The notes beneath the pieces are model-generated. The model did no database searches. It was not told the DNA's origin and worked only from the letters and a program-made list of their open reading frames with translations. The position numbers and the translations under genes were made by a program. A stretch of 27,856 bases of DNA from a virus. The stretch spans positions 1 to 27,856 of the IMG/VR virus record IMGVR_UViG_3300032134_000014, one strand, 5' to 3'. Position 1 is the first letter of the stretch, and the number at the start of each line of letters is the position of its first letter. Positions 2,676 to 27,856 of this stretch are shown one piece after another.

Positions 2676-2686
2676 GAGAATTAAAA

Positions 2687-3394
2687 TTGTCGGAGAATAA
2701 AACAGTTCATTTTGAAACTATACCACAATTAACGTTGGGGTTTGCTGGCATAGGCTTAGGTGAGGTGAATATTATTAATAAGTATATTGATGATAACACC
2801 AATAGATTGCCAGATTTATCGTCACAACTAGTAGGGCAAATAAAGCAAGATGAAAAATCAAAACAACTAGAATTTGATTTAAACGATACTGTTCCTAAGC
2901 AGTTAAGTAGGTTTTTTATTATGTGTGCAAAAGAATATGCTGCTGAACATCCAATGTCTGATCGTGTTAAAGAAATTATTGGGCCCAAAGAAGAATATGT
3001 TGTTAAAACAATGTGGTCGGTACATAGCTATGCTGGTGACTACAATCCTCTGCATGAGCATGGAACTGCCAGTGGAAGAGGCGTATCTATGATTGCATTT
3101 TTAAAACTCCCGTCACAAATATCTGAGATAGCAGACGACATGAAAGAGGGTGAAATCGGTGTGCAACATGGCAATTCTGGTAGTACAGATGGTTTAACTC
3201 AATTTGTTTGGGGTAGAGACAGTATGTATGATATACCTAGATTTAAACATCCTTCCTTTGGATATGTTCAGCCAGAAGTAGGTAAGGTTGTAATATTTCC
3301 AATTTGGTTGCTTCATCAAGTCGCACCATTTTTTGGTGAAGGTGAAAGGCGCACAATGTCTTGCAACATAGATATTATTAATAGTCATGTATGA
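2687..3394 (+). CDS. Putative 2OG-Fe(II) oxygenase, phage type (3 of trio)
   Basis: Protein of 235 residues. The start is taken as the TTG at 2687 because a GGAG lies 8 bases before it. Candidate metal ligands are H-E-H-G at about residues 123-126 and the distal His in W-L-L-H-Q-V at about 210, with E-R-R-T at about 220-223 supplying a possible 2OG-binding Arg. The order of motifs (L-H-E-H, a G-x-V-S-x-I-A-F-L-K-L strand, G-K-V-V-I-F-P-I-W-L-L-H) matches the same phage oxygenase family as the gene at 1461, so the two are likely related. Its 3' end overlaps the start of gene 62 by 8 bases. The substrate is unknown. Confidence 0.6.
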   Translation: MSENKTVHFETIPQLTLGFAGIGLGEVNIINKYIDDNTNRLPDLSSQLVGQIKQDEKSKQLEFDLNDTVPKQLSRFFIMCAKEYAAEHPMSDRVKEIIGPKEEYVVKTMWSVHSYAGDYNPLHEHGTASGRGVSMIAFLKLPSQISEIADDMKEGEIGVQHGNSGSTDGLTQFVWGRDSMYDIPRFKHPSFGYVQPEVGKVVIFPIWLLHQVAPFFGEGERRTMSCNIDIINSHV

Positions 3395-6691: not shown

Positions 6692-7273
6692 ATGAATACA
6701 AAAATTACTGACTTAGTTGATATGGATGAAGTTAAGTTAAACATGGCTCGTTGCACATGGAAACTTTTACGTGCTGGTCTTGAAGAGTGGACTCCAGAGG
6801 TTGCAAATGCAGTGCCTCGTGGAAAACTATATGAGATCAAATATATGTTGTCTCGTTTACCTTATACAATGAAGGGGGTGCCTTATGCACATTCATTAAC
6901 TGTAATCGAAAATTATGGATATGTTAAAAAGACTATAAAAGATACTGTAACTACTGATCACTTTTTTTGTTCTTACACCACTGGTGAATTTGCATTAGAT
7001 AATCCAGACACTTATCTTGCAGATGGTACTTTGGAAAAATTTTCAATGGAGTTATATCCCTTTACGTTTTTAACCAATTGGTTAACCCAAGAAGAAAATA
7101 AGAAACTAAGCAATTTGAAAGGAATAGAATTAACACAAGACAAATATGCTAAACTTGGTATAAAATTATATATAGATGACGAACAGGTAGAAAATCCCGA
7201 ATTGCCTGCAGGGTTTACAGAGTGGGAAGATGAAAAATATTTTCCCAACAGTCTCTATAGACTTTGTGCTTAA
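6692..7273 (+). CDS. Unknown protein downstream of gene 43
   Basis: Protein of 193 residues that I do not recognise. It has no signal peptide and no membrane segment. It is mixed in charge with many aromatic residues, for example a Y-P-F-T-F-L-T-N-W-L segment in the C-terminal half followed by an acidic tail region (D-D-E-Q-V-E-N-P-E). The ATG directly follows the polymerase stop (TAA-ATG), so translation is probably coupled to gene 43. It ends 8 bases before the chosen start of the methyltransferase gene. Position suggests an accessory protein of replication or DNA modification, but no motif supports either. Confidence 0.7.
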   Translation: MNTKITDLVDMDEVKLNMARCTWKLLRAGLEEWTPEVANAVPRGKLYEIKYMLSRLPYTMKGVPYAHSLTVIENYGYVKKTIKDTVTTDHFFCSYTTGEFALDNPDTYLADGTLEKFSMELYPFTFLTNWLTQEENKKLSNLKGIELTQDKYAKLGIKLYIDDEQVENPELPAGFTEWEDEKYFPNSLYRLCA

Positions 7274-7281
7274 AGGACAAT

Positions 7282-8496
7282 ATGAGGTATTATCGTTATA
7301 CGCTGGATGATTTAAAAGAGTCGTCAGACAGAAAACTATTCACCTACATATCATTCTTTGCAGGCGGCGGTGGTTCTTCTGCTGGTTATAAACTTGCTGG
7401 TGGTGACTGTCTATTTGTAAATGAATTTCAGCAAGTTGCAGTTGATACTTATCTTGCGAACTGGCCAGATACTCCACATATATGTGGTGATATTAAAAAT
7501 GTCACAGGAAAACAGATTATGGAAATGACAGGCCTTAAAGTTGGTGAATTGGATATTCTCGACGGTTCTCCACCATGTCCGCCATTTTCAATGTCCGGCA
7601 CAAAACAAAAAGGTTGGAACAAGGAGAAGATGGCATATGGTATGAAGCAACAGAATATTGAAGACCTAACATGGGAGATGATTCGTATTGCTGGTGAGAT
7701 GAAACCAAAAGTTATCATATGCGAGAACGTCAAAGGTTTAACGATGGAATATGCAAAGCAGCATTTAGATCGTATGGTAACAGACTTTGAAGGTCTTGGT
7801 TACACAACTAACTTTAAGGTTCTTAATGGTATACATTTTGGAGTACCACAGAAACGCCAGAGAGTGTTTATTGTGTCAGTACGCAATGATGTTATGGATG
7901 ATATTGGCATGCCGTGGATGGCGATCTATAATGGGAACATATTTCCAGATGGTGCAATGCATGAGGAACCTACACTAGAAGATGCAATAGGTGATCTACG
8001 ACTCGATAACGAAAATAATGTTGAGGCATATGAGTTGCGTGAGACAATGAAGAAAAGTGCTAAATATAAATGGTTAAAACGTCTACCCAAGAATCCTGAT
8101 AAGGTTGTATCAGTGGGTTCGGATGTAGTAGGGCCCTGGTACGACAAGGTGATTGCACATAGAAAGAAGTGGGGAAAAAGTATTCCAGAAGCAAAGAGTT
8201 CATTCTATCAGAGTCGTAGAGTTCCTTGGCATCAAGCAAGCCATACATTGTCAGAACAGGGCCTTATGACCTCATTATCAGTTCATCTTCATGTTGAAGA
8301 AGATCGTGTATACACCACCAAGGAAGCAAAACGAATAATGACTTTGCCAGAAGATTACATTTTAATAGGAACATTGAATGAGAAACTTGCAAGAATTGGA
8401 TTGATGGTAGCACCGATGATGATGAAATATCTTGCAGAAAGTATATATGAGAAAGTGCTGAAGGGCTATCATGAAATACATAACAGCAAAAACTGA
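7282..8496 (+). CDS. C5-cytosine DNA methyltransferase
   Basis: Transfers a methyl group from S-adenosylmethionine to C5 of cytosine in DNA; 404 residues. Motif I is S-F-F-A-G-G-G-G-S-S-A-G at about 24-35. The catalytic loop is G-S-P-P-C-P-P-F-S with the nucleophile Cys at about 99. E-N-V is at about 148-150, and Q-K-R-Q-R-V-F-I-V (motif VIII) at about 190-198. Late motifs A-K-R-I-M-T-L-P-E-D-Y and a C-terminal V-A-P-M-M closing motif are present, so the enzyme looks intact. The ATG at 7282 is preferred to the TTG at 7264 because AAAGGA lies just before it. It overlaps the TET-like gene by 26 bases, suggesting 5mC is the substrate of the next enzyme. Target sequence unknown. Confidence 0.95.
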   Translation: MRYYRYTLDDLKESSDRKLFTYISFFAGGGGSSAGYKLAGGDCLFVNEFQQVAVDTYLANWPDTPHICGDIKNVTGKQIMEMTGLKVGELDILDGSPPCPPFSMSGTKQKGWNKEKMAYGMKQQNIEDLTWEMIRIAGEMKPKVIICENVKGLTMEYAKQHLDRMVTDFEGLGYTTNFKVLNGIHFGVPQKRQRVFIVSVRNDVMDDIGMPWMAIYNGNIFPDGAMHEEPTLEDAIGDLRLDNENNVEAYELRETMKKSAKYKWLKRLPKNPDKVVSVGSDVVGPWYDKVIAHRKKWGKSIPEAKSSFYQSRRVPWHQASHTLSEQGLMTSLSVHLHVEEDRVYTTKEAKRIMTLPEDYILIGTLNEKLARIGLMVAPMMMKYLAESIYEKVLKGYHEIHNSKN

Positions 8497-9418
8497 TCTT
8501 GGAGAAAAAGAAACATTTGAAAGGTGGAATGGTAAATTCTACCAAGAATCTGATCTAGATCAGATTGTTTATGCGACAGAAGATACTGTTGTAATGCGAC
8601 CTGATGCTACTCTTGATGGTAAAGGTGTTCCTATTGCATATGTTATTACAAATGCATTTCCCAATGACAACATAAGGAACATTTTGTATTCTATTGAGGA
8701 AACTTCAGTGATGAGAGCAAATTGTTCTGGCCCTATTGATAAAGAAGAAATGGCTGCAAAGGGATTAATTGAAGGAAAAGATTATAAATTACGAAGCCCC
8801 AATTCTTATTATGTAAAAACAAAATCTGGTGGTTGGGGAATGATTGCTTATGCAAATGAAATTAATTCTGTTATGGTTGGTGTAAAAAGAGGACGATTTA
8901 CAGGAAAGATCAATATTTCGAATCCTGATAGGTGGAAAGAATTAAAAGAACTTTGCTATTATAATGAAGAGGCAATGAAGAAAGCTGATCCTGAGTTACA
9001 TCAACGCCAAAGGAAATTTGCAGAAGAAACAATCAGCACAGAACATCGTCATGGCATGATAACAACTTTGAGTGCTAATCGGTATAGTGCATTACAAAGT
9101 AAAGCCATGAGTGTTCATAGTGATGGTAAAGATGTAGAATATACAACTATGTGCTGCTTCCGACAAGGTGATTATGAAGGGGCATACTTATCTTTTCCAA
9201 GGTGGGGAGTGGGATTGGATTTGCCAGATAATAGTGTATGTATTGCAGATTCACAATCTCTGCATTGCGTCACAGATATTCGTGGATCAGGACAACGATT
9301 TACCACAGTAGCATATACTGATCGCTCTTGTGCTACCTTGGGAAACATGGGAAAAAGTGAAAGATTGATTGGAAGATTTGCGAAAAAAGAAATTGGTAAT
9401 TTAGAAGAGTTTATTTGA
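8471..9418 (+). CDS. TET/JBP-like 2OG-Fe(II) dioxygenase (5mC oxidase)
   Basis: Protein of 315 residues. The C-terminal third has the dioxygenase core: H-S-D at about 216-218, a strand G-A-Y-L-S-F-P-R-W, then G-L-D-L-P-D-N-S-V, a distal His in D-S-Q-S-L-H-C-V at about 265, and Arg in G-S-G-Q-R-F-T-T-V-A-Y at about 276. This order and spacing fit TET/JBP nucleic-acid dioxygenases better than prolyl hydroxylases. Phage TET enzymes that oxidise 5mC to 5hmC next to a methyltransferase and glycosyltransferases are known from marine viral DNA. Here the gene overlaps a C5-cytosine methyltransferase by 26 bases, with GAAGGG as ribosome site, and a T4 alpha-glucosyltransferase homologue lies 2 kb on. 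The ~200 N-terminal residues are not recognised. Confidence 0.75.
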   Translation: MKYITAKTDLGEKETFERWNGKFYQESDLDQIVYATEDTVVMRPDATLDGKGVPIAYVITNAFPNDNIRNILYSIEETSVMRANCSGPIDKEEMAAKGLIEGKDYKLRSPNSYYVKTKSGGWGMIAYANEINSVMVGVKRGRFTGKINISNPDRWKELKELCYYNEEAMKKADPELHQRQRKFAEETISTEHRHGMITTLSANRYSALQSKAMSVHSDGKDVEYTTMCCFRQGDYEGAYLSFPRWGVGLDLPDNSVCIADSQSLHCVTDIRGSGQRFTTVAYTDRSCATLGNMGKSERLIGRFAKKEIGNLEEFI

Positions 9419-9426
9419 AAAAATAC

Positions 9427-9455
9427 TTTACAAATACATTATGCTGTAGTATAAT
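9427..9455 (+). promoter_or_regulatory. Sigma70-type promoter for the 9486 gene
   Basis: TTTACA at 9427-9432, a 17-base spacer, then a perfect TATAAT at 9450-9455. Transcription would start near 9462, leaving about 24 bases of leader with an AAAGAGATAA ribosome-site-like stretch before the ATG at 9486. It lies in a 67-base gap, one of the longest in the window, and marks the start of the AT-rich glycosyltransferase block. Confidence 0.7.
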
Positions 9456-9485
9456 ATTGAAACTATATAATAAAGAGATAAAATT

Positions 9486-10928
9486 ATGACCCCTATTATT
9501 GAAGATGAAGACCGATTTGCCAACACACTACTAACAAATTGTGTTGCCGCAATATTAGTATGGAATGATGTTCTACAATGCGATATTTCATATTACTTTA
9601 GAAAAACTTTTGGAAAACCATCTAAGGTGGAAGAACTAAAAAAGTATAGAGGTTCTTCACAGGGTAAGAATAGAGCAAATCCAAAAATTTTAAAAGCAAT
9701 AGAGAAATCATCAAAACCACCAAGGATTAGAGTTTTAGAGCATAATGTTCTTCATCATGATTTAGGTTTTCATGAGCAGAAAGCTGTGATGTTACACAAC
9801 TTTCCAATAGGCGGTCATGACAAGAAGTCAAAAGATTGTTTCAATGAGAAATACCCAACTGATGGCATTTCAAAAGATTGCATGAGGAGTCACATTGCTG
9901 CTGATCTTTTGAGAGAAAAGATAAAGAAGCACCAAGACCCAAATGATGCATTTAAGTTTCCAACTGGCTTTTCAACTAAAGAAGAAATAAAATATTTGAA
10001 AAAAAATAATTTATTCGTGCAAGCTAGATGGGAAAAAGAGGGCAGTAACGATGCAGTTGAATATTACAAAATAAAAATGGAGGAAAAACCATATCCTAAT
10101 GAATGGTTAGGGAAGTTTTGGTTATTAATGCCTAGGGAAGGTAGTAATCAACCAATTGGTACAGGCAGTAATTATCACCCAAGAATTTTAGACGGTAATC
10201 AAAGTGGTGCAGCTTGTATCAGAGTTCCAGATATGCCTGGTTTGAATGATATCAGAATACCATATGAAGATCACTGTCTAATAAACGAAACTGATTTAGA
10301 AACAATAGGTAATGAATTAAATGCAGAGCCGGAGATAAAATCAGATTATGTTGATGATGAGGACATATTAAGAAATTTAAGAAATACATTAGTAAGAAAT
10401 AAATTATTTACGAAGAAAGGAAATCCACAAATTGATCATTATCTGGTGAACAAACTCTTTAAGCCTTTACACAAAACCAACAGAGAAATACGCTGGTATA
10501 AGAATCAAATTAAAAAAGAGTATAAAGAAGAAAAAGAAACAAAAGAACGACTCCAACTAGGATACTATGACTTTCGTGAAACTGCTCTAAAAGATAATGA
10601 TGGAGATAATAATAATAAAAGAAAGTTTGATGAACTTGTAAAACCTATAGGTTTAGGCAAATTTTGCAAATGGCATCAAGTTACTGATGGTTTTGAAGAA
10701 AAAATTTCAAAGAGGATACAGCATGATAAAAATGGAGTCACGCCAAAGAAACTTTTGACCTTTGTAACATTTCCAATGGAAGCTGGTTATCTTAAAAGTA
10801 AGAACGATGATAAATTTTGGGAGTGGGAAATAAAAAAGTTTAGTGAAGTTTGTGAAGTAACAATAGCTTTATTAAATCCAACTGGCAAGGAGTACACTTT
10901 ATTTGACCAATCTAGTATTCCAAGTTAA
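9486..10928 (+). CDS. Unknown 480-residue protein in the modification cassette
   Basis: I do not recognise this protein. It is rich in Lys, Asp and Asn, with no signal peptide or membrane segment. A His-rich stretch, H-N-V-L-H-H-D-L-G-F-H-E-Q-K-A-V at about residues 85-100 and then I-G-G-H, could bind metal, but it fits no motif I can name. A basic/acidic helical stretch near the middle (K-K-E-Y-K-E-E-K-E-T-K-E-R) may be coiled coil. It has its own promoter and overlaps the following glycosyltransferase gene by 26 bases, so the two are probably co-expressed. Its place between the TET-like oxygenase and two glycosyltransferases suggests a role in making or attaching the DNA modification; this is inference from context only. 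Confidence 0.8.
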   Translation: MTPIIEDEDRFANTLLTNCVAAILVWNDVLQCDISYYFRKTFGKPSKVEELKKYRGSSQGKNRANPKILKAIEKSSKPPRIRVLEHNVLHHDLGFHEQKAVMLHNFPIGGHDKKSKDCFNEKYPTDGISKDCMRSHIAADLLREKIKKHQDPNDAFKFPTGFSTKEEIKYLKKNNLFVQARWEKEGSNDAVEYYKIKMEEKPYPNEWLGKFWLLMPREGSNQPIGTGSNYHPRILDGNQSGAACIRVPDMPGLNDIRIPYEDHCLINETDLETIGNELNAEPEIKSDYVDDEDILRNLRNTLVRNKLFTKKGNPQIDHYLVNKLFKPLHKTNREIRWYKNQIKKEYKEEKETKERLQLGYYDFRETALKDNDGDNNNKRKFDELVKPIGLGKFCKWHQVTDGFEEKISKRIQHDKNGVTPKKLLTFVTFPMEAGYLKSKNDDKFWEWEIKKFSEVCEVTIALLNPTGKEYTLFDQSSIPS

Positions 10929-11583
10929 TATAAAACCTAACGGAGTTAAAACTTCTGGCAGAAAAAAGTTTGCATACTCTAATTCTCTTTATGATTTTTC
11001 AAATCAAAGAGCTAAAGATTATGCAGATAAAGTTGGTGCAGATTATTTTTGTTTGAATAACACAGATTGGTTAGGTAACAACTACGCACCTTGCTATCAT
11101 AAGTTGTATGTTTATGAATTACTCAATAAATATGAGAAAGTATTTTACTTAGATTCTGATGCTATAATTACAAAGTTGTGTCCAGATATATTTAAGTATA
11201 GTAAATTTTCAGCTGTGTTAGATAATGCGATACACACTCCAAGTGGTAAAAAAAGATTACAAAGAAAGTTAGATATACATAATATAAAAAAACAACATGA
11301 TTATTTTTGTAGTGGAGTAATACTATTTGATAAAAAGTTTTTACAAACAACTAAACAATATTGGAAAGATGAATTAGATTATTGGAAAGACATTAAAAAT
11401 GGCCAACATGACCAATCTACACTTAATGTATTGATTTCAAAATACTATGGAAAATACAATTTATTAGATGCAGATTGGGGTGCTCATTGGAAAATTGGTA
11501 AATTCATAAAACACTATAGTGGGCCCACACAAACATCAGAATGGACAGAAGAAAAGTTTTTGAGTTGGGAAGAAAAAATATGA
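10903..11583 (+). CDS. Glycosyltransferase, GT8/glycogenin-like
   Basis: Protein of 226 residues with a GT-A-type layout: first strand N-L-V-F-Q-V-N-I, then a D-Y-F-C-L-N strand, Y-A-P-C-Y-H-K-L-Y-V, and F-Y-L-D-S-D-A-I-I with the metal/nucleotide-sugar D-x-D at about residues 84-86. Later come F-C-S-G-V-I-L-F and H-D-Q-S-T-L-N, both typical of GT8-like enzymes. It would move a sugar from a nucleotide sugar to an unknown acceptor. The TTG start at 10903 is supported by AAGGAG 10 bases upstream and by the protein beginning at its first strand. It overlaps the neighbours on both sides (ATGA with the next). It could add a second sugar to glucosylated 5hmC, or act on a host glycan. Confidence 0.8.
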   Translation: MTNLVFQVNIKPNGVKTSGRKKFAYSNSLYDFSNQRAKDYADKVGADYFCLNNTDWLGNNYAPCYHKLYVYELLNKYEKVFYLDSDAIITKLCPDIFKYSKFSAVLDNAIHTPSGKKRLQRKLDIHNIKKQHDYFCSGVILFDKKFLQTTKQYWKDELDYWKDIKNGQHDQSTLNVLISKYYGKYNLLDADWGAHWKIGKFIKHYSGPTQTSEWTEEKFLSWEEKI

Positions 11584-12755
11584 AAGTGGCTATTGTTCTT
11601 GGCAGAGGCATCGAAGGGTGCGGTGTTACAAAATACACCGTAGAGCTAGAAAGATGGTTACTTAATAATTCTTATAATCCTACAATATATGCATCTAAAG
11701 ATAAAAAATGGTCTAGGAATGATGCACATAAAATTAAAAACTTAGTTCATGTTCGTTTTGATAAAGATAGTTTTGATGAAGTATATGAGGGGTGTAGAAG
11801 TTCTGATATAATAATTTTTAATTCGTTACCATCTATAGGCCACAGTAAAAGATGTCAAGATAATTTTGCAAAACTTTTAAATTTAAGTGTTTGTAAAATC
11901 TTAATACAACACGACCATAATAAATCTTCATTAAAGAGAAATGCTCTACTACAAGATTCATATGAAAAATCAGATATACTATTTGCACATTCCACCACAG
12001 GAGATTTTGCTGATATGGTAAATACTCCAAATCTATTTGACATGAGAGATAGAAAAATTAATCTGATGCAGCCAGGTATATCATTTGTAGATTATGAAAA
12101 GTATTATAAGCCTATTAGTGAGCAAGACAAAAACCATCACAAATGGATAGGTAGAACTGCAAGATGGAAAGGTTATGATTTAATGTTTAATTTTCATAAC
12201 AACTATCTTAAAGATTTAAACCAACTAACTACTTTTGAGGGTATTGAGAAAAGTCCAGTTTTTATAGAGTTTAAAAATGAATACGAGTTTTATGATGAAT
12301 TAGGACAAAGCCCAGAAGATATTAATTATCAAGAAAGGTATGGAAAAAAACCAACTGTTTTTTCTCAATATATAAATTCAGAATTATTAGACAGATTATC
12401 CAAATGTGGTTTTGGATATCAACTAAGTATATTGGATAATAGATTTATAGAAAAGTCTTTAGAATTTACTCACTTAGAAATTGTTGCTGTAGGCGCAATA
12501 CCAATATTTAGAAAAGAGTATGGTGATGCTTGTATTCACCGTCATTATGATAAACCTCTAACAGAATTAGATAGTGGGACAGTGTGGTTATCTAATGATA
12601 ATATGGAAGAATGTAAAAACTTAATAGACGAATTATTAAATGATGATATTTTGAGAGATGAGTATAGAAATAAAGCATTTGAATTTTATTCCCATTATGA
12701 TTCTAAATATGTCATGGTTGATTTGATGAAAATTGTGGATGGTACAAAATGCTAG
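11580..12755 (+). CDS. agt: DNA alpha-glucosyltransferase (T4 alpha-GT homologue)
   Basis: Protein of 391 residues (T4 alpha-GT has about 400) that matches the T4 enzyme along its length. The N-terminus G-R-G-I-E-G-C-G-V-T-K parallels T4 A-R-G-L-E-G-C-G-V-T-K. Q-H-D-H at about 110-113 is shared, as are W-I-G-R-T-x-x-W-K-G at about 189-198, Y-I-N-S-E-x-L-x-R and G-F-G-Y-Q-L-S near 264-283, S-L-E-[FY]-T-H-L-E at about 293-300, and P-L-T-x-x-D-S-G. T4 alpha-GT transfers glucose from UDP-glucose to 5-hydroxymethylcytosine in DNA (GT-B fold). Start: ATG at 11580 overlapping the previous stop, with GGGA upstream; the in-frame ATG at 11541 would add 13 residues not seen in T4. AT-rich codon use. Confidence 0.92.
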   Translation: MKVAIVLGRGIEGCGVTKYTVELERWLLNNSYNPTIYASKDKKWSRNDAHKIKNLVHVRFDKDSFDEVYEGCRSSDIIIFNSLPSIGHSKRCQDNFAKLLNLSVCKILIQHDHNKSSLKRNALLQDSYEKSDILFAHSTTGDFADMVNTPNLFDMRDRKINLMQPGISFVDYEKYYKPISEQDKNHHKWIGRTARWKGYDLMFNFHNNYLKDLNQLTTFEGIEKSPVFIEFKNEYEFYDELGQSPEDINYQERYGKKPTVFSQYINSELLDRLSKCGFGYQLSILDNRFIEKSLEFTHLEIVAVGAIPIFRKEYGDACIHRHYDKPLTELDSGTVWLSNDNMEECKNLIDELLNDDILRDEYRNKAFEFYSHYDSKYVMVDLMKIVDGTKC

Positions 12756-16587: not shown

Positions 16588-18036
16588 ATGAGTTTGCAAA
16601 AATATGTTCGGCAACTTAAGCCACGAACAGAAAATTACATTCCGCCGATAGATAAGGTTCAGAATCTTCTTGAATCCGCTAAAGGTATCAATATAGAAGT
16701 ATTACAAAAAGAATTACCTCGTTCTAATATATTACGATCTCAAGTTCTTTTTGATGCTATAAAAAACCAAACTCCATTAAAAACCACCAAAGGATCAGTA
16801 ACCTTAAACTGGATATCTGATGTTGATAGAATTGCTGCTGAGAGTGGTGATTATTCCTCTGCTTTTGAAAGTCGGCCATCACGATATAAACCAGCATTTG
16901 TTACCGATAAAGGTGATAAAATTAAACTTAATGATATTTTAAAAACTGATGCATTTGGTGGTGGTAAAGGTTCTGGTGGTGGAGCGGAACAAACAGGTTT
17001 AATGGAATGTGCCCAGTGTATCTATGCAGCTGCAATATTCAGTGGAGTAAAGTTAACAGAGGGGGATGAACTTGATGCATCGTCTTGGGGAACATACAGT
17101 TCTTCATTTGATATAGACGAATCCCTAGATGCAATCGCAGATGGATTTTCACAAGCATGGATGGACTCCAGTATTTTAATTGGCAATCAACTAAAGAAAA
17201 ATATAAAAGGTACAAACTATACTTGGCATAGAGGTTCTACCTTTGTTAAAGAAATAGAGGAAAAGTTTAAGAATTTAAATAAAGCAGAGAAACCTAAACC
17301 ATTTTCCAATATTAATAAATGGACTCCTGCTGATATATGGGCAGTAAAAAATGGGAAAACTTTTGATTTTAATCAATTTTCATCTTTGGGCGAATTTACT
17401 AACGAATTAAAAGAATTATACGATAGTGGAGATTTAATTGGTATTTCCTTGAAGTTTGTCTCTAGAAGTGTTACAGTAGAAGAGAAAAATATAACTGGAT
17501 TTATTAGACGGCCAGTAAAATATGGCGGTTACGAGAAACCGAAGGATTTTTTCAGTTCAAAGGATTTGTATATTTTATTGGGAAAACAAAGGATGCAACT
17601 AAGAACTTTTTCTCCTGTATCAAGTTGGCAGGGAGAATCTAAGGGAACAGCAGCTGCAGCTGGTAAGATAGGCGGTGGTGTGTTAGAATCTATCATGATT
17701 AAAAATAGCACTTTAACAAAATTCCCTTATACTAATGCCCAATTGAAGACATTAGCTACAAAACCGACACCAGCATTTTTGGATGAAATGTATGAGATGT
17801 ATGTAGGATTAGTATCAGGTACAGCAGACCCTAAAAATAAATGGGTTAAAAAAGCAAGTGCAAAAACGATTGGTCGAGTAAGTGGAGCAGATTGGAGATT
17901 TTCTAAGTTTAGAAGTATGTTCTTTGTTGCACAGTTAGAAGACAATAAACGCATAGCAGATAAAGTATGCGACAACATTGCAGCATATTCTTTGTCTGCA
18001 TCTGACGATGCTGCTCCTCATGTGGTGTACAAATGA
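16588..18036 (+). CDS. Unknown late protein, 482 residues
   Basis: First gene after the late promoter, with a good GGAG ribosome site. I do not recognise a named family. It has a Gly-rich loop (A-F-G-G-G-K-G-S-G-G-G-A-E-Q) at about residues 127-140, then K-W-T-P-A-D-I-W-A-V-K near 249-259 and L-I-G-I-S-L-K-F near 289-296. The last two, an acidic residue followed by a strand ending in I-S-L-K, resemble the D...K pattern of PD-(D/E)xK nuclease-like folds, which is only a hypothesis. A second G-K-I-G-G-G-V motif lies in the C-terminal third. No signal peptide or membrane segment. ATGA overlap with the next gene links it to the internal-protein set; a virion protein is likely. Confidence 0.75.
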   Translation: MSLQKYVRQLKPRTENYIPPIDKVQNLLESAKGINIEVLQKELPRSNILRSQVLFDAIKNQTPLKTTKGSVTLNWISDVDRIAAESGDYSSAFESRPSRYKPAFVTDKGDKIKLNDILKTDAFGGGKGSGGGAEQTGLMECAQCIYAAAIFSGVKLTEGDELDASSWGTYSSSFDIDESLDAIADGFSQAWMDSSILIGNQLKKNIKGTNYTWHRGSTFVKEIEEKFKNLNKAEKPKPFSNINKWTPADIWAVKNGKTFDFNQFSSLGEFTNELKELYDSGDLIGISLKFVSRSVTVEEKNITGFIRRPVKYGGYEKPKDFFSSKDLYILLGKQRMQLRTFSPVSSWQGESKGTAAAAGKIGGGVLESIMIKNSTLTKFPYTNAQLKTLATKPTPAFLDEMYEMYVGLVSGTADPKNKWVKKASAKTIGRVSGADWRFSKFRSMFFVAQLEDNKRIADKVCDNIAAYSLSASDDAAPHVVYK

Positions 18037-18980
18037 AAACCTTTAAAGAGTTATATGAGGCCTTAGATTTTGCTCCTACGCATTCATTAAGTTTATCGGA
18101 ACTTATTTTTACTCATGCAATGGGCGGGCAAGATATGTCCGATACTTCCTGGGTAAGAGGTGGTCCCGGTTCGTCAGCTAATAGTATGTGGTTGCCTCTA
18201 TCTGGTTCCATGTTTAAAAGAATATTCCCGAAAGAAGTTAGAGCAACAGTTTTTCATGTAACAAGAATGTCTAATTTTGAGCAGCTGTATTCAATCCAAA
18301 ACTCAAGGCGTTCCATATCTGCATTTACAAATATGGATAGGCAACCGATTTATAGAGGCATTCAAGGTGGCAGTGGTCTTGTCGTTGAAGTGGATGGAAA
18401 CATTCTTGCAGCAGCCAGAGAAGACCTTATGTCTATTCCCGAAACATCTGGTAGAAGGATGATGGCGTTCAATTGGTTTAGAGGCCCGTGGGGTTCAGAC
18501 GATGTAAAGAAAATGCAAAAAGGACTTGAAATATTATTGAAAGTATTAATCAAAAAATATGGAAAGTCGTTTGATGGAGATGAACCAAAAGGTAAAGATG
18601 ATTTTGAAAAATGGATGTACATGCATGGGACGTATAAAAATTCTAAAGTAAAAAATGTTGGTAGAATAATGCAATCACTTATAAAGGATTATTTGGATGG
18701 TGTTGAAAAAGTATTCAAACAAAATTCCAAACAGGTTCAAAATGTATTGACTCGTTATATGCAACGCCGCAAAACTGATGATAACTGGGATGAGATTGTA
18801 ACTGATGATTTTGAAATCAAAAAGGTATGGATAATTGAAGATTCAGATGAGCTAACGCCTGGTGATGCTGAAGAATTTAAAACTAATATATCATTTACAA
18901 AGTTGCCAGTTGAGATTACTAATGCCCAGAAGATGGAAGCACATGTAAGAGATGTTGCGAAGAAGGCTACAGGTGGGTAA
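18033..18980 (+). CDS. Putative head-packaged protein with capsid-targeting peptide; ADP-ribosyltransferase-like?
   Basis: Protein of 315 residues starting M-K-T-F-K-E-L-Y-E-A. This copies the T4 internal-protein capsid-targeting peptide (M-K-T-Y-Q-E-F-I-x-E-A), which gp21 cuts after [LI]-x-E, here L-Y-E before Ala 10. The body has T-V-F-H-V-T at about 72-77, S-I-S-A-F-T at about 94-99, and V-V-E-V-D-G-N, then S-G-R-R-M-M-A-F-N-W. The His-strand, Ser-x-Ser strand and Glu order recalls ADP-ribosyltransferases, and T4 packages and injects the ADP-ribosyltransferase Alt, but I cannot confirm the fold. The C-terminal third is charged and probably helical. Overlaps the previous gene by ATGA and lies 2 bases before the next. 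Confidence 0.6.
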   Translation: MKTFKELYEALDFAPTHSLSLSELIFTHAMGGQDMSDTSWVRGGPGSSANSMWLPLSGSMFKRIFPKEVRATVFHVTRMSNFEQLYSIQNSRRSISAFTNMDRQPIYRGIQGGSGLVVEVDGNILAAAREDLMSIPETSGRRMMAFNWFRGPWGSDDVKKMQKGLEILLKVLIKKYGKSFDGDEPKGKDDFEKWMYMHGTYKNSKVKNVGRIMQSLIKDYLDGVEKVFKQNSKQVQNVLTRYMQRRKTDDNWDEIVTDDFEIKKVWIIEDSDELTPGDAEEFKTNISFTKLPVEITNAQKMEAHVRDVAKKATGG

Positions 18981-18982
18981 TA

Positions 18983-20224
18983 ATGATAAGCTTTAGAGAA
19001 CTAACAGAAGACAAAGGTGGCAAAAATCTTCATCTTGAGCATCTAGAGGATGAGATCATCAACTATGGTGTAGATGGTGGACGTGCTGCTCTTAACTTCC
19101 TACGCTCACTTAGAGATATGATGGCGGGTGCAAGTCGGTCTTCTGTAAACATGACAGTAAAGTGGGATGGGGCTCCTGCTATATTTGCTGGTATAGACCC
19201 CGACGATGGTAAATTTTTTGTTGCAAAGAAAAGTGTCTTTAACGTATCCCCTAAATTATATAAGACAGAAGCAGAAATTGATGCAGATTTATCGGGAGCG
19301 CTGAATGCAAAGTTTAAAGTCGCACTTAAAGAATTTTCCAAGTTGGGTATCAAAGGAGTACTCCAAGGCGATCTCATGTTCACGGATGATGTGGAAACAT
19401 CGACTATTAACGGCAATGGGTATCTTACTTTTCAGCCTAACACTATTGTTTATGCTATACCTGATAATTCTGAATTAGCAAAAACTATTAAAAAAGCAAA
19501 GGTCGGTATTGTCTGGCATACCACATACACAGGTGATGCATTACAGGACATGAAAGCATCCTTTGGTGCAAACATATCTTCACTGAGAAAACCATCAAGC
19601 GTATGGATGGATGACGCAACATACAAAGATGTGTCTGGTAGGGCAACATTTAATGCAGCAGAGACAGAGAAAATTACTGCAACACTATCACAAGTTGGTA
19701 CTACCTTTAGAAAAATTCATGCGGGTCAACTAAACTCATTTCTTAAATTACAACAAAGTATGACAGGAGCTCTTGCCGGGGCATCATTAAAGACATATAA
19801 TAATAGCATGGTTCGTGCTGGTGAGAAAATAACAAATCCTATGTCACATGCCAAAGGATATGAGGCTTGGGTTTGGGATTCTATTCAGAAACAGATTGAT
19901 AAGGCAAAGAGTGAGCCGGGTAAGGATAAGTATAGAAATATTCAAAAAGAATATGTGAGAGAAGTAAAAAAATACACAAGAAATTTAATACAAATTATTA
20001 CATTTCAGAATCTACTTGTTGACGCCAAAATGCAAATAGTCAAAAAACTAAATAGTGTTAAGGGATTGACTGATACATTCATCAAGACCACAAATGGATT
20101 TAAGGTAACTAATCCCGAAGGGTTTGTTGCTATTGACAGAATAAGTGGTGGCGCTGTTAAACTTGTAGACCGCATGGAGTTCTCGTATAACAACTTCACC
20201 GCAATAAAGGCATGGGACAAATGA
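18983..20224 (+). CDS. Nucleotidyltransferase/ligase-like protein (KxDG) with capsid-targeting-like start
   Basis: Protein of 413 residues starting M-I-S-F-R-E-L-T-E-D, again fitting the capsid-targeting pattern with L-T-E as the likely cut. Near the N-terminus is V-K-W-D-G-A-P-A-I-F at about 59-68: K-x-D-G is motif I of ATP-dependent DNA/RNA ligases, where the Lys takes AMP. Downstream F-F-V-A-K-K-S (78-84), V-L-Q-G-D-L-M-F (126-133, like motif III) and V-G-I-V-W-H-T (174-180, like motif IV) follow in the right order. The C-terminal half is helical and unfamiliar. I infer a covalent nucleotidyltransferase-superfamily member packaged in the head, perhaps to seal or modify nucleic acid early in infection. 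Proteins with this KWDG segment occur in marine T4-like phages as hypotheticals. Confidence 0.6.
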   Translation: MISFRELTEDKGGKNLHLEHLEDEIINYGVDGGRAALNFLRSLRDMMAGASRSSVNMTVKWDGAPAIFAGIDPDDGKFFVAKKSVFNVSPKLYKTEAEIDADLSGALNAKFKVALKEFSKLGIKGVLQGDLMFTDDVETSTINGNGYLTFQPNTIVYAIPDNSELAKTIKKAKVGIVWHTTYTGDALQDMKASFGANISSLRKPSSVWMDDATYKDVSGRATFNAAETEKITATLSQVGTTFRKIHAGQLNSFLKLQQSMTGALAGASLKTYNNSMVRAGEKITNPMSHAKGYEAWVWDSIQKQIDKAKSEPGKDKYRNIQKEYVREVKKYTRNLIQIITFQNLLVDAKMQIVKKLNSVKGLTDTFIKTTNGFKVTNPEGFVAIDRISGGAVKLVDRMEFSYNNFTAIKAWDK

Positions 20225-20601
20225 AGAATTTTAAAGACTTCTATGAAGCTGTTGCGTCTGTTTTGCAACGAAAAAAACTTGCTCGGCGCATGTCAAAGAT
20301 GGCTAGAATGCCTGCCATTAAAATGAAAAAGAAGCGTGCTGCATTAAGAATGCGTACTCCTGGCAAATTAGCTCTCCTTGCAAGAAAGAAAACTATTCAA
20401 TCATTTAGAGATAAATTTTATCCTACCTATGGTGGGATGTCTTTGCAGCAACGAGTTATTGTAGACAATAAAATCATGCAGAAGTATGGTAAAAAGATAG
20501 ACAAGGTTTCTAAGAAACTTCTTATGAAACTTAAAAAGACTGAATTGGAAAGAGTGAAGAAGGCAAGAGCTTCAGTAAAACTAAAGATGCAAGAGAAATA
20601 A
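20221..20601 (+). CDS. Very basic internal-head-type protein with capsid-targeting peptide
   Basis: Protein of 126 residues. The ATG at 20221 overlaps the previous TGA (ATGA) and gives M-K-N-F-K-D-F-Y-E-A, the capsid-targeting pattern; the in-frame ATG at 20212 would hide it behind three residues and is rejected. After the likely cut at F-Y-E before Ala, about one residue in three is Lys or Arg (38 of 116 by my count), with few acidic residues. That composition fits a DNA-binding, charge-neutralising internal protein packed with the genome, like the small basic T4 internal proteins IPI-IPIII. No domain is recognised. Confidence 0.7.
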   Translation: MKNFKDFYEAVASVLQRKKLARRMSKMARMPAIKMKKKRAALRMRTPGKLALLARKKTIQSFRDKFYPTYGGMSLQQRVIVDNKIMQKYGKKIDKVSKKLLMKLKKTELERVKKARASVKLKMQEK

Positions 20602-20604
20602 AAA

Positions 20605-23600
20605 ATGCGTAAATTTAGAGATTTGGTAGAGGCAAAAGAAACTATTGTTTTTGCCTTTGGTCGTTTTAATCCACCTACAACTGGCCATGAGAAATTGATT
20701 CAAAAAACTGCTTCAGTTGCTGGGTCTAATCCTTTTCGCATTTATCCATCTTTTACCACCAATCCTAAGAAAGACCCTCTTCCTCATTCTATTAAAGTAG
20801 CATATATGAGAAAGATGTTTAAGAAGTATGCGAAAAATATCATTGCAGATAATGACGCAAAAACAGCAATACACATAGCAGAAAAACTCTATAATGAAGG
20901 GTTTAAGAATCTGGTTATGGTTGCTGGTTCTGATCGTATCAAAGAGTTTTCTACACTTCTAAACAGATATAACGATGCACCAGATAAGAAGGGAAATCAA
21001 CTCTTTAAGTTTGATTCTGTTAATGTTGTGTCTGCTGGAGAACGTGATCCTGATGCCGAGGGTGTAGAAGGTATGTCTGCATCTAAAATGAGAGCTGCTG
21101 CTTCTGATGGAGATATGGATTCATTTTTACAGGGAGTTCCTTCTGGATTTGCTGATGGTAAGAAACTCTATAGAAATGTTCGCAAGTATATGGGTATTCG
21201 TGAAGAGCGTGACATGGGTGATATGAATAATTATGAAGAACTACGAGACGCATATCTTACAGGTAAGGTCTGGAATGTAGGTGATGTTGTAGAAGCTAAT
21301 GGGATTGTTGGTGAGATTGTTCGCAAGGGTACGAATTATCTTTCGTTAGTATCAGAGGATGGTAAGGTTCATAAAGCATGGTTGCATGAGATTAATGAAG
21401 GTGTAAAAGATTTGCCGCCTCATTTGCAGAAGCTAGTTAAGCAGTTGGAAAAGAAAGAAAAGGAACTAGAGAAAAAGGGATTGAAGGTCAAAACTTTTAT
21501 CTATAACCCAGATACAGGAAAGCCTGATATTGAACTTGGTGAAGAAGTTGAGCTTGATGAAATTGCTCGTTTCTTGGCAAGACCTCTTACGCCGTATGCT
21601 GCTGCCGCCGGCAGGTATGCTGGCCGAGCTATAAAGAAATATTTTTCCAAGGCGGATGCTAAACCTAAAACTCATAAGGGCCCAGGTAAACCTGGGCAAA
21701 GTAAACAATGGAAACCATATAAGAAAGGCCAGGCTAAGAAAGAATTTGATGAAATCGAAACTCAACTTCAGAGTAAAGGCACACCAAAAGATGTAAAAGT
21801 TAAATTAAAAAAATTAAATACTCCTGCTAAATTAGATGCTGCAGCCGCTAGAGGTAAGGAAATAAAAGTATCGCCTGCTCATTCTCGTCGTCTTGGAAAT
21901 ACTGGACAAACACCTACAAAGGGCCCAGGAGCTTTAGAAAAACCAAAGGTAGATAGAGTATCTAAACAATTGGACCCCGGCGGTTCAGGTGCAGAAAAAC
22001 CTTTAGCCATAGATAGGGGCCCAGGAAAAGCTCCGTGGGTGTTAGGTGGAAATACACGGTTGCGAGTTAGTGCAGATAAATTACAGCAGAATACGCCAGT
22101 GAGAGTGATAAAAAATGAATTTAAATTGGAAGAAGTTGAGCTTGATGAAGGAAAAAAAGAATCATATCCAGTACGGCAGTTAATTGATCCTAAAAAAGAG
22201 GTGCTGGTTGTCAAGAAGAATAGTGTCATTGTTATTGATAAGATTAACCAAGACTATTATTTGAAAAAGGGTTGGTCACTTGCTGAAGAAGATGTGCTTG
22301 ATGAAAGAAATTACAAATTAGAATATGCGAATTACCAAGGTAGACCAGAACAGATTGAACGGCGCTCTTCTAGGAACAAAGCTCGGAGGGCAATGGGTGA
22401 TAAAGCAGTTAAGGGTATGGACGTTGGGCATATTGATAATGATCCTATGAACAATGATCCCAGTAATTTGGGCAACGAAGACCCATCTGAGAATCGTAGA
22501 GAGCCACGGTTGAGAGAAGATAAACTTAATGAGGAGTGGTGGAATAAGGTATTTGCAAAAATTAGTCAGATGAGTCATCCTAAATCTTATGGAAAAATGA
22601 TCCAAGATTATGCTGAACTAATGAAACAAGACAAATATAGAAAGCATCCAAATATGGCTGCTGATAAAATTGCTCGTGAATATGGTGGAGTTGGTGGCAG
22701 AGAATTTATTAAGTATATTAATAAATTGGTTGCTAAGAAGATACTTCCTCAAGAGCTGAAGGCAGAGTACGAAATGGAGAATACTATCATGTTTACATTC
22801 AAAGAATTTGTGGATGAAATACAAGAAGATACGAAACAACAGGCACCAATCGGTGATCCGCCTCTAGGTGTTACTAAAAGCCAATGGGCTAATCCTGCTG
22901 TTCGAAAAATTATTAGAGATAAGGGTGTTATGTCTAAAGGGCCAAATGATAAGGTTGATGCTAAAACAACACCACCGCCAAAAGCAGAAATTAAACCATC
23001 TGCTCCAGCCGCAAAGCCTGAAAAAGTTAAAGCACCAGTTGCTAAAACAGCACCACCGCCAAAAACAGAAATTAAACCATCTGCTCCAGCCGCAAAGCCT
23101 GGCAAAGTTAAAGCAACTGCTGCTAATACAAGAAATTATGACAAAACCCTTGCAATACAGAAAAGACTTATTGCACAAGGTGCTAAGATTAAAGCAGATG
23201 GACTTATGGGTCCAAACACTAGAGCTGCTATGAAAAAGTTTGGGTCTAAACCTGTTAGTCCTAAGAAAACTACAGTTCCAAAATCTACTGCTCCAGTGCC
23301 ATCCATGCCAAAAGTACCAGTTAAAAAGGTAGAGGCAAAACCTTTAGCGCCACCGCCCAAAACTAAACATGATGTTTCTACAAGAGCAGGAAGACGGAGC
23401 TGGTATAATGCAAGGGTGGAAAGGGCTAGAAAAGCAGGACATCCAAATCCAACCATGTATGCTTCACAAGCTGCACTTGAAACTGGTTGGGGCAAATCAA
23501 AATCAGCTAAAGGTAATTTAGTTGGAATGAAGGCTCGCAAAGACCAAGCTGGTGAAACAAAAAGTCATACAGAATATGTTAAAGGCAAAAAAGTAAAAGG

Positions 23601-24398: not shown

Positions 24399-26780
24399 AT
24401 GACTGTATACACAAAAACAATGACAGAATCACTTGCAGAAATGCGTAGTCTTCAAGAAAATAATATGGACCTGATGAAGAAAGCAGTTAATGGCTCTATG
24501 CAAACTCTTAAAATGAAAGATGGCAAGCTGAAAATGGATAAGGTCACAGCTTCTGCCATCATGCAAATATTTGATAAAGTAAATCCTGCTAATCAGAAGA
24601 AAATGGAACAGATGATTAATGATGGAAATAAGTCAGGAATTATGAAGTTGCAGAAATTTGCCATGTCTAAAGTTACTGGCTTCAAGAGTGAAGAAGTTGA
24701 GCTTGATGAAGTTGCTGCTAGAGGCAAGAAATTTGATGATTCTAAAATTGGTATTGGTACTCCTGTTGAAATTAAAGATAAATCAGGTAAGGCCCATAAA
24801 GGTCGGGTAGTTAAAGTAAATCGTAAAGATGATAAAGTTACCATTTCTATTGATGGTGGTGGAACGGTTATTGCCCCTCGTTCAAAACTGTCTATTGTTC
24901 GTGAAGAAATTGAGCTTGATGAAGCACCAAAGTACGAACTCTACCATAAAGATTTTTCCACTGCTATGCAATACGCATACAAGATGGCAAAGAAACTCCA
25001 CGGCATAACTGTTAAACCAAGTGAGATTGATGATAAGGTTGCCAGTGGCCCCAAAAAACCATCAGAGGGTAAGACAAACAGCTATCGTCTGGAAGGTGAC
25101 AAGGGTGCTATCCAAGTTCAAGTATACAACAAGGGTGGTAATAGACCATACGAGCTAAACTTTTATAAGGAAGAAGTTGAATTTGATGAAAATAAATTGC
25201 CTGATATGAGAGATGCTCTCTTGCAAGTCAGGACGGAAAAACCAATTCAACTTGATGAAGCAGCAACGTCAAAAGTTCTTGCTCACGGCGGTAAGGGGCA
25301 GTATAAAGTAGTCAGTGGCCCCGCACAAGATGGCAGTCGTGAAACCGTAGTCAAGTTTAAAGGTAAGGTAGTTAGTACGGGTGATTTTGACCGTGGTGCT
25401 GATGGTTGGTATATGAACATCAAGGGCAAGAAAGGCCAAGAGTTCTTTGACGATGCCCAGAAGATGGCCGACTATTTTGCGAAGAATAAAATTACAGAAG
25501 AATCTGACTTTAATAAGATGCTTGGTAAAGCATTTAAGGATACAGAAGATAAGCATAGATATTATGGAAGAAAACATAATATCCCTACCCCTATGAGAGG
25601 GCAGCATCCTACAGGAACAACTTCTGGATGGAACCCCGAAACAAAAACCTGGGAATATGATGTAAAACTTAATAAGCCTAAAAAGAAATCACAACCTAAA
25701 TCCGAAGAAGTTGAGCTTGAAGAAGGTAAAATGAAAGAGCTTCATGGGTATATTGAAGATGGTAAGTCTGCTGAGTGGATTGCAAAGAAAATGGGAGTTG
25801 ATGTCAAAACAATTAAAGCACTTATGAGCGAAGCATATGAACTTGGTACAAATGAGTATCGGGAATATCTTGAAAGATTGACGCCGGGTGAATTTGATGA
25901 AGGATGGTTTAAAGATTTGGTTGATAAGAAAACCGGCGCTAAAGCAGCTGACCAAGGTCATCAAGGCAATGGTTCTAAGAAATCTGATAAGCCTAAAAAA
26001 TCACCGCTGCAAAAAGTATTGGATGCTATTAAAGATCGCTTTACTACTAAAGAAGAGTATATAATTTTCCTTAATAATATTAATGAAGCCTCTGCTCGTG
26101 CTGATGCAATGCGGTCAATGAAATCAGACCCATCTATGGAACAAGACCCATTTTCAAAGGATGATGCCGCATCAGATGAAGATATAAAGGGTGCAACCAA
26201 GAACATTATTATGCAAATGCGTAAGGCAGTATCTTTACGAGGAACTTTTCCTGTAGAATTTGGTGATAAGAAGAAGGTGAAAATTCCAGTAAAGATTGCA
26301 CAAGCAGTTCAGGATAAATATAATTCCTTTAGAAAACCAGCAGACAAAGAAAAGTTCCAAGCTAGGGTTGCAAAGTCTCATAAGGATATGTTGCTTGCAT
26401 TAAAGGAAAATGTTGAAGTAAAATCTTTTAGAGATTCGGTTTTAGATAGAATTGATGAAAAGATAGAAAAACAACAAGAACTTGATGAATTTGCTCGTTT
26501 AGTGGCAAGACCTCTTGTGCCGTATGCTGCTGCAGCAGGAACAGCTGCTGGCCAAGCTATTAGAAAAGGTGCCAAATGGGTAGGTGGTGCCTTGACTGGC
26601 CCGGCGGCAAAAAGTTTAGCAAAATGGGAAATCGGCGCCGCTGCAGCTGATAAAGCCCTTGATAGTAAGCGAACAGGTCGAAAGAGGACCGGCCATTTCG
26701 GCCAGGCCCTTGGGTCCGCCAGGGCAAATCGGATGAAAATGTTAAAAAAAGCACAAGCACAAAGAAAAAAGGATAATTAA
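24399..26780 (+). CDS. Multi-module head polyprotein with repeated L-D-E cleavage motifs
   Basis: Protein of 793 residues with an AGG ribosome site 8 bases upstream. Its start, M-T-V-Y-T-K-T-M-T-E-S-L-A-E-M, differs from the M-x-x-F type but holds an L-A-E. [LIF]-x-E motifs end near residues 104, 175, 264, 287, 441, 563 (I-N-E before Ala), 687 (I-D-E) and 697, splitting the protein into modules: a helical leader, a KOW/SH3-like ~70-residue unit (T-P-V-E-I-K-D-K-S-G-K), a ~90-residue unit starting Y-E-L-Y-H-K-D-F that I recall from marine T4-like phages, further small units, and an A/G-rich basic C-terminal segment. I infer a prohead core or internal protein cut into many pieces. The C-terminal coding end (about 26580-26740) is GC-rich. 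Confidence 0.75.
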   Translation: MTVYTKTMTESLAEMRSLQENNMDLMKKAVNGSMQTLKMKDGKLKMDKVTASAIMQIFDKVNPANQKKMEQMINDGNKSGIMKLQKFAMSKVTGFKSEEVELDEVAARGKKFDDSKIGIGTPVEIKDKSGKAHKGRVVKVNRKDDKVTISIDGGGTVIAPRSKLSIVREEIELDEAPKYELYHKDFSTAMQYAYKMAKKLHGITVKPSEIDDKVASGPKKPSEGKTNSYRLEGDKGAIQVQVYNKGGNRPYELNFYKEEVEFDENKLPDMRDALLQVRTEKPIQLDEAATSKVLAHGGKGQYKVVSGPAQDGSRETVVKFKGKVVSTGDFDRGADGWYMNIKGKKGQEFFDDAQKMADYFAKNKITEESDFNKMLGKAFKDTEDKHRYYGRKHNIPTPMRGQHPTGTTSGWNPETKTWEYDVKLNKPKKKSQPKSEEVELEEGKMKELHGYIEDGKSAEWIAKKMGVDVKTIKALMSEAYELGTNEYREYLERLTPGEFDEGWFKDLVDKKTGAKAADQGHQGNGSKKSDKPKKSPLQKVLDAIKDRFTTKEEYIIFLNNINEASARADAMRSMKSDPSMEQDPFSKDDAASDEDIKGATKNIIMQMRKAVSLRGTFPVEFGDKKKVKIPVKIAQAVQDKYNSFRKPADKEKFQARVAKSHKDMLLALKENVEVKSFRDSVLDRIDEKIEKQQELDEFARLVARPLVPYAAAAGTAAGQAIRKGAKWVGGALTGPAAKSLAKWEIGAAAADKALDSKRTGRKRTGHFGQALGSARANRMKMLKKAQAQRKKDN
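26004..26087 (+). repeat. Recurrent 'x-E-E-Y-x-x-x-L' module, copy 1 (others 27263-27363, 27553-27624)
   Basis: Three stretches in two genes code the same pattern: a basic helix (K-V-L-D-A-I-K; A-W-Q-A-I-K; K-V-L-G-A-L-G), then S/T-x-E-E-Y, then a hydrophobic turn ending in a cut-site-like motif (I-N-E before Ala; L-D-E before Met-Met-Val-Gln-Glu twice). The last two copies are almost identical from E-E-Y onward at DNA level (27337-27378 and 27598-27639). Confidence 0.7.
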
Positions 26781-26781
26781 A

Positions 26782-27856
26782 ATGGCTAAGAAATATTTAG
26801 ATACAAAGCAAAGCACCATTGAAGCCTCTGTTTTAGATGTTTGGGCTAAATCTTCAGAAGAGCAGGAAGCAATTCGGAATGCTGCTGAAATGATGGTTCA
26901 AGAAAAAATGACTGATAGACAACGTATGGCAAGAGAAGCTGGGAGACGCAAACAAGGCCCAGGGGCTGGTAAGACAGCCGGACTACCGCCTAAAGGCCAT
27001 CATACAGAGTTGCGGCCGGGCCCCGATCCCGCCGATCCATGGACTGGCACGAAGACCGGCAAAGGCCCAGCTGTCACACCGTCTGCCGCCAAGGCAGGTA
27101 TGAAAAAACGCAGTTTTGGAGGTCGGAATACACCTGACCGCCCGTTTGGACCGGGCTCTAAGCCGCCGGTCCAGGCCGTGGACCCGAACCCACTCCATAC
27201 CGCTAAAAGAGGACAGCCAACAAAATTATCTCGCCAGCAACCAATTGCGACACCAAAAAGGGGTAAGATTAGTAGAGCTTGGCAAGCAATTAAAGGTTTT
27301 CTCTCTAAAGAAGAGTTTATAAACAGTTTATCCACAGAAGAGTATGAAATTTTTCTTGATGAAATGATGGTTCAAGAAGATGACGAACATGTTGTTAAGC
27401 AAGCATTAATGAAACGAGATGGTTTAGATCATAGTAAAGTTTCTGATGGTGGTGTTCATGCTGATTATCGTGCAAAGGCACGAAAGCTATTAGATAAGCA
27501 TGGTAAGGATGCAATGTATCATGCTCCTCCCGCTCGGCGTCTTCCTTCAAGGAGTAAAATTGGTAAAGTTCTTGGTGCCCTTGGACGCTTATCTAATGAA
27601 GAGTATGAATTTGTTCTTGATGAAATGATGGTTCAAGAAGAAACTTCAAATCAAGATATGGAAAAAGGAAGGTTTGCAAAGTTGCAGCGCATCAAGAAAG
27701 ATGCTGAGAAACATGCGAAAATAGCAATGGGTGATCGGTATAAAAGTGCGGTGCAATCCGGCGATACGCCCGGCAAGATGGCTATGCGTGGTGTGACCCC
27801 TGGTTCTCCCACGCTTACTGGCACAGGAATTCCAGACCTTAGAAGGAAGAACTTAG
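26782..27856 (+). CDS. Head-type polyprotein, 3'-truncated by window end
   Basis: An open frame of 358 codons starts at the ATG at 26782 (AAAGGATAATTAAA before it) and has no stop before the window ends, so the C-terminus is missing. The start M-A-K-K-Y-L-D-T-K-Q is not the M-x-x-F type. M-M-V-Q-E occurs three times (about residues 38-42, 195-199 and 282-286), twice as E-E-Y-E-[IF]-[FV]-L-D-E-M-M-V-Q-E. Residues ~50-155 form a Gly/Pro/Lys/Arg-rich low-complexity stretch coded by unusually GC-rich DNA. The rest is basic and helical, with no enzyme motif seen. The L-D-E motifs and the position just after the other polyprotein genes suggest another prohead-protease-processed internal protein. 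Confidence 0.75.
   Translation, partial: MAKKYLDTKQSTIEASVLDVWAKSSEEQEAIRNAAEMMVQEKMTDRQRMAREAGRRKQGPGAGKTAGLPPKGHHTELRPGPDPADPWTGTKTGKGPAVTPSAAKAGMKKRSFGGRNTPDRPFGPGSKPPVQAVDPNPLHTAKRGQPTKLSRQQPIATPKRGKISRAWQAIKGFLSKEEFINSLSTEEYEIFLDEMMVQEDDEHVVKQALMKRDGLDHSKVSDGGVHADYRAKARKLLDKHGKDAMYHAPPARRLPSRSKIGKVLGALGRLSNEEYEFVLDEMMVQEETSNQDMEKGRFAKLQRIKKDAEKHAKIAMGDRYKSAVQSGDTPGKMAMRGVTPGSPTLTGTGIPDLRRKNL

Follow-up and report, generated by a model that had tools for sequence, protein, structure and literature searches.

The window analysed here, a 27.9-kb IMG/VR fragment (27,856 nt) from a T4-like marine phage, encodes a sliding clamp, clamp loader, DNA polymerase, UvsX and helicase, in a gene order resembling that of Methylophilales phage Melnitz (Kyanoviridae). 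No RNA family was found in the window. The gene for gp21 is also absent, and in the window's own phage would sit outside the fragment. Most of the features considered belong to a cluster of ORFs with CTS-like starts, including two polyprotein ORFs with repeated sites, or seams (Table 1). A tail fibre or diversity-generating element was considered and rejected: the neighbourhood is wrong, and there is no reverse transcriptase or template repeat among the ORFs. Elsewhere, the region 7264-12755 contains a DNA cytosine methyltransferase-like ORF, an oxygenase and two glycosyltransferases, likely a pathway from 5mC through hmC to glucosyl-hmC. Because methyltransferase-like, Tet/JBP-like and alpha-glucosyltransferase ORFs are encoded, the DNA of this phage may, judging by gene content, contain glucosylated hydroxymethylcytosine. 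Three 2OG-Fe(II) oxygenase-like ORFs also lie in tandem at 1461-3394, two of the three exceeding the Pfam cut-off.

Table 1. Features of the window, by position; a slash marks the presumed cut.
Feature	Position	Strand	Remarks
Tet/JBP-like 2OG oxygenase	8471-9418		
GT8 glycosyltransferase	10903-11583		
T4-like DNA alpha-glucosyltransferase	11541-12755		E 7e-67
ORF of unknown function	18033..18980	+	CTS-like start MKTFKELYE/A, cf. T4 IPIII MKTYQEFIAE/A
DUF6267 protein	18983..20224	+	CTS-like start MISFRELTE/D
Small basic ORF	20212..20601	+	CTS-like start MKNFKDFYE/A
Sister polyprotein ORF, 1253 aa	20605..24366	+	CTS-like MRKFRDLVE/A
Sister-ORF seam, GEEVELDE/IA	21534..21562	+	
Sister-ORF seam, LEEVELDE/GK	22122..22150	+	
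Sister-ORF seam, AEEDVLDE/RN	22278..22306	+	Boundary retained in L001 next to swapped module
Seam polyprotein ORF, 793 aa	24399..26780	+	CTS-like N-terminus MTVYTKTMTE/S
Seam 1, SEEVELDE/VA	24684..24713	+	E of LDE is residue 104; following module replaced in L001
Seam 2, REEIELDE/AP	24897..24926	+	
YELYHKDF module, ~85 aa	24924..25184	+	Mobile between ORFs and positions
Seam 3, KEEVEFDE/NK	25164..25193	+	
Weaker site, KPIQLDE/A	25239..25262	+	
Seam 4, SEEVELEE/GK	25698..25727	+	
HTH-like module GKMKELHGYIEDGKSAEWIAKKMGVDVKTIKALM	25725..25892	+	Weak HTH matches
Weaker site, GEFDE/GW	25884..25904	+	
ASARADAM module, ~110 aa, after INE/A	26079..26414	+	First module in Melnitz gene 20
LDE/FARLVARPLVPYAAAAG module	26478..26567	+	DNA 81% identical to 21550-21639 (repeat family D4)
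Third ORF of cluster	26782..27855	+	Runs off contig; LDE/MMVQE present twice

The modules of ORF 24399-26780 (NCORE, KOW-like, YELYHKDF, KVLAHGG, HTH-like, ASARADAM and ARLVARP) are about 20-190 residues long. The sites in its first half are EEVELDE/V (residue 102), EEIELDE/A (173), EEVEFDE/N (262) and PIQLDE/A (285), and in its second half EEVELEE/G (440), GEFDE/G (499), DRIDE/K (685) and QELDE/F (695), plus INE/A (561). The first-pass annotation of this DNA had noted at least eight [LIF]-x-E motifs here, several of them near-identical DNA copies, and both observations hold. The seams are directly visible, as is their excess: eight [LIF][DE]E motifs compare with a mean of 1.16 after shuffling, and four EE[VI]E[LF][DE]E with a mean of 0.00, neither count being reached in 2000 shuffles. 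The bare [LIF]xE count (13, against a shuffled mean of 7.9) was set aside as too weak to stand alone, since 68 of the 2000 shuffles reach it. Near-identical site DNA makes up repeat families D1-D3, with GAAGAAGTTGAGCTTGATGAA, for example, inside the copies at 24683, 22122 and 21534.

The pattern is wider than that annotation had described. The upstream sister ORF has the same sites, with seams around a cytidylyltransferase, an HNH-like stretch and a glucosaminidase, and a 90-nt module from the LDE at 21550 recurs at the LDE at 26478 with 81% identity. A tandem 81-nt repeat (91%) at 22959-23120 encodes a Pro/Lys-rich spacer that separates the HNH-like part from the glucosaminidase. In the third ORF, two 53-nt repeats (91%) at 27328-27641 encode EEYE-FLDEMMVQE, possibly another type of seam; its positional counterpart, Melnitz gene 21, has one EEVELDE/G.

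In T4, gp21 cleaves after L/I-X-E (PMC9026906). The seams meet what would be required of a gp21 substrate, namely L or I at P3, E at P1 and a small residue at P1'. With P3 left free, L or I is found in 92% of seams, and with P1 left free, E in 98%; at P1', A (33%) and G (21%) are well above both background (8.6% and 6.4%) and control xxE positions (4.6% and 4.8%). P2 is D in 85% of seams; the clearest head substrates (FLSE/A, YITE/A, FIAE/A) have S, T or A there. Melnitz gp21 is 38% identical to T4 gp21, and Melnitz gp23, the major capsid protein, has FLSE/A where T4 carries FLTE/A. CTS-like starts recalling that of T4 IPIII recur in the cluster and are present in 39 of 94 seam ORFs, compared with 81 of the 575 remaining ORFs in those loci. 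ORF 24399-26780 is among those with such a start, but its version has M in place of L/I at P3. The virion record within the cluster is limited to one domain of the sister ORF, through an orthologue: its cytidylyltransferase is 40% identical to GC190 of cyanophage S-SM1, a protein that starts MKKFSAFLNE/A and was detected in purified virions (PMC3037559). Cutting of the seams by a T4-type prohead protease is well supported, if only indirectly, by the residue patterns, the CTS-like starts, the gp21 of Melnitz and the S-SM1 virion record; no cleavage data for these proteins were found.

Since cleavage has not been directly seen, the seams might instead be flexible acidic linkers of an uncut multidomain protein of the polyvalent type, where breakpoints accumulate because only joints made in linkers survive selection. 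Linkers are the best recombination points in any multidomain protein, and phages are known to encode polyvalent proteins of 2-15 domains (PMC5512222). This would leave unexplained the preference for L/I at P3, E at P1 and A/G at P1', and it is considered unlikely, also in view of the breakpoints and codons described below.

Relatives in IMG/VR were compared using ORFs with repeated seams from about 360 loci. In one of these (L001), the counterpart of ORF 24399-26780 keeps the N-terminal module and first seam, and from there to the following seam another module takes over; in its sister ORF the module ahead of the HNH-like part also differs, seam to seam. Loci L266-L274 have many further differences of this kind, and between L233 and L289 a block is swapped from EEVELDE to EEVDLDE within flanks that are 98-99% identical. 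At the protein level, 89 of 195 homology breaks (at least 70% identity) fall inside the 11-aa site footprint, where 16.5 were expected; with the sites moved 20-40 aa, only 2-15 do. Homologous segments start where the motif starts and end immediately past its E. At the DNA level an event was defined as a module change with flanks at least 85% identical, counting only events in frame on both sides. There are 88 distinct events, not fully independent by descent. Sites coincide with 47 left ends and 40 right ends (8.3 expected each); in 31 events both ends are at sites (1.0 expected), these coming from 9 of 18 contig groups. About half of all ends in the 88 events are away from any recognised seam. 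Pure indels are at a site in 28 of 34 cases, and their direct-repeat overlaps range from 2 to 45 nt, commonly 21-28 nt.

Decoy positions were not enriched, with 4 and 10 ends at other acidic patches (6.3 expected) and 1 and 6 at lysine patches (7.9 expected). A breakpoint excess confined to seams, and missing from other acidic patches, is not what a linker explanation leads one to expect. According to the first-pass annotation, relatives that have gained or lost modules should show their breaks at the repeats coding for LDE, and the protein- and DNA-level counts, together with the negative decoys, bear this out. Seen directly in individual loci, exchange of modules at seams is strongly supported by these genome comparisons as a whole. 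Single-linkage clustering of the modules was discarded because it fused unrelated ones into a family of 189, and 14 representative modules were tracked in its place. These occur in 70 architectures, a mosaic multi-domain organisation such as that of polyvalent proteins; DUF5824, YELYHKDF and other modules are found in both ORF types.

Seams also share their DNA. Codons for the same residue in different seams of one ORF agree at 0.84, compared with 0.54 expected, with 95 of 102 ORFs above expectation; agreement is weaker (0.79 against 0.57) in loci from a codon-neutral DNA scan, which were not picked by protein family. Of 219 seams whose flanks are unlike, 75% use CTT for Leu, and conservation of the seam DNA drops sharply at the edges of the motif. 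This uniformity of synonymous codons in otherwise unrelated seams, which linkers would not account for, is read as descent of the seams by copying. It fits exchange at the seam and is no proof that the DNA drives it.

The repeats could also have arisen by convergence on a favoured protease peptide combined with codon preference, with DNA likeness irrelevant to exchange. Single-site ORFs from the unbiased scan favour CTT too (16 of 28), and the exact seam DNA turns up at eight unrelated loci in bacteria, for the most part in ordinary cellular genes. Elsewhere in the loci of the seam ORFs, however, Leu within [ED]L[DE] is CTT in only 31%, and the seam-size direct-repeat overlaps of the pure indels are not expected from convergence, which remains a minor possibility rather than one to be dismissed. 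The 22-mer was separately considered as a mobile element in itself and rejected, because its cellular occurrences are those same eight. In T4, recombination between homologies of just 2-10 bp is documented (PMC9391042), so a 21-bp seam would be long enough. Of the idea put forward in the first-pass annotation, a cassette in which small internal proteins can be added or exchanged by recombination at the site-coding DNA, exchange at the seams stands, and physical use of the site DNA is unproven. That recombination does use it, rather than selection keeping in-frame site-to-site joints, is likely.

Internal modules have a median length of 84 aa and 93% are net positive; the sample contains 51 multi-member families and 174 singletons. 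Structures were predicted for single modules only, the full-length attempt being abandoned because MAFFT stacked fragments of different modules on one region. YELYHKDF (mean pLDDT 79) and ASARADAM (core pLDDT about 94) are predicted to fold; for neither did a fold search give a match better than chance or a solved relative. Pfam found no embedded peptidase in ORF 24399-26780 or the sister ORF, and the modules gave only weak sub-threshold matches.

The polyproteins might be scaffold or core filler, cut to clear the head and made of modules without a host role. In T4, gp21 breaks gp22 and gp67 down into several pieces, which mostly exit the head (PMC9026906), and Melnitz gp22 has a similar SLEE/GK site. 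Melnitz, however, has this gp22 of its own beside gp21 and gp23, and modules that are diverse, exchanged and basic, with enzyme domains in the sister ORF, are unlike filler, which appears distinctly unlikely. The T4 precedent matters in another way: when a core protein of T4 is cut at several sites, most of its fragments are lost from the head, so modules might be expelled rather than kept.

T4 IPI, which is injected, blocks a restriction enzyme in a setting of glucosylated hydroxymethylcytosine (PMC3012670). As the window phage possibly has such DNA, anti-defence cargo is by analogy a reasonable guess and no more. With injection itself inferred, an effector function of injected modules could equally well prove right or wrong. 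Three observations in relatives may be added. An intein-like insertion (Cys...ITGN/S) splits a KSKFDVYP/SAYANGWAAKWYKEKGG module in an 11-site seam polyprotein (L055, ORF starting 5450, - strand). A 143-aa ORF between two polyprotein genes (L001:4559-4990), with the CTS-like start MKTFKTLLTE/I, looks ADP-ribosyltransferase-like by eye only and has no Pfam match. Melnitz gene 2 (L004:82-1131), distant from the cluster, encodes a RimK-like ATP-grasp protein with the CTS-like start LTQKFSQFITE/E and may be packaged.

The reading preferred here, a head-targeted polyprotein cut at its seams by a gp21-type protease, with basic modules probably injected and modules exchanged at the seams, is considered probable. 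A T4-type capsid-targeting N-terminus would bring the polyprotein into the prohead core, and a gp21-type prohead protease would cut each repeated [LI]-D-E seam just after its E. The small, mostly basic modules released in this way would remain with the DNA and, like the internal proteins of T4, would probably be injected. As the seams are 21-22 bp of almost identical DNA, recombination between them would allow in-frame gain, loss, swap and reordering of modules, and recombinants would automatically be flanked by cut sites. That gp21 does the cutting, and that the modules are packaged, injected and act as effectors, are inferences; for these ORFs there is neither a virion proteome nor a cleavage assay. 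As whole modules of relatives are added, dropped and reordered exactly at the site DNA, one short sequence probably doubles as protein cut mark and gene splice seam.

The internal proteins that T4 injects are anti-defence factors, of which IPI blocks GmrSD. Marine phages of the T4 type rank among the most common viruses; to our knowledge, their equivalents of these proteins are largely unnamed. It is suggested only tentatively, the balance leaning slightly towards doubt, that the seams make up a self-perpetuating cassette for exchanging injected phage proteins, in which cut site and recombination seam are the same 21-22 bp and a module between two seams would therefore be packaged, released and open to further exchange. 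If true, T4-like phages would have in this cassette a general means of shuffling a store of small anti-defence proteins, and it would be a clear case of a protein-processing signal that also serves as a DNA exchange seam. It would also give a simple parsing rule, by which an ORF is split at [LI]DE and every piece is a candidate head-delivered protein, and the dozens of module families would be a ready list for anti-defence screens.

No published description of a seam polyprotein was found among open-access papers. The closest relatives are Melnitz genes 18, 20 and 21 (MZ577097), annotated just as hypothetical proteins, which have the same locus, CTS-like starts, YELYHKDF and ASARADAM modules, and seams. 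The N-terminus of gene 20, the homologue of ORF 24399-26780, is MTRYNKTMSEALSEVRS, 61% identical to the first 18 residues of the window's ORF. Module order is reversed, however, with ASARADAM first and YELYHKDF last, and most of the window's modules are missing. Polyvalent proteins (Iyer et al. 2017, PMC5512222) likewise combine many unrelated domains per polypeptide in mosaic order and are thought to be delivered with the DNA. In the part of that source available, release is attributed to embedded peptidase domains and no repeated seam is mentioned, whereas the window implies a separate structural protease and has a seam conserved in both protein and DNA. T4 gp22 and gp67 and SPN3US gp53 (PMC10052503) resemble the window in having several prohead-protease sites per chain, but there the sites serve to degrade scaffold or propeptide and here they flank exchangeable modules. 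The T4 internal head proteins (IPI, IPII, IPIII and Alt) share the CTS-like N-terminus, an L/I-x-E maturation site, small basic products, variable gene content and neighbours of the same virion-protein class. In T4 there is one gene per protein and whole genes are exchanged; the window has many products per ORF, with 6-10 modules and repeated sites in a single ORF, and exchange takes place inside it. Because one gene gives many products, the seam polyprotein is not a standard member of that class, and would work like a T4 internal-protein set fused in one chain.
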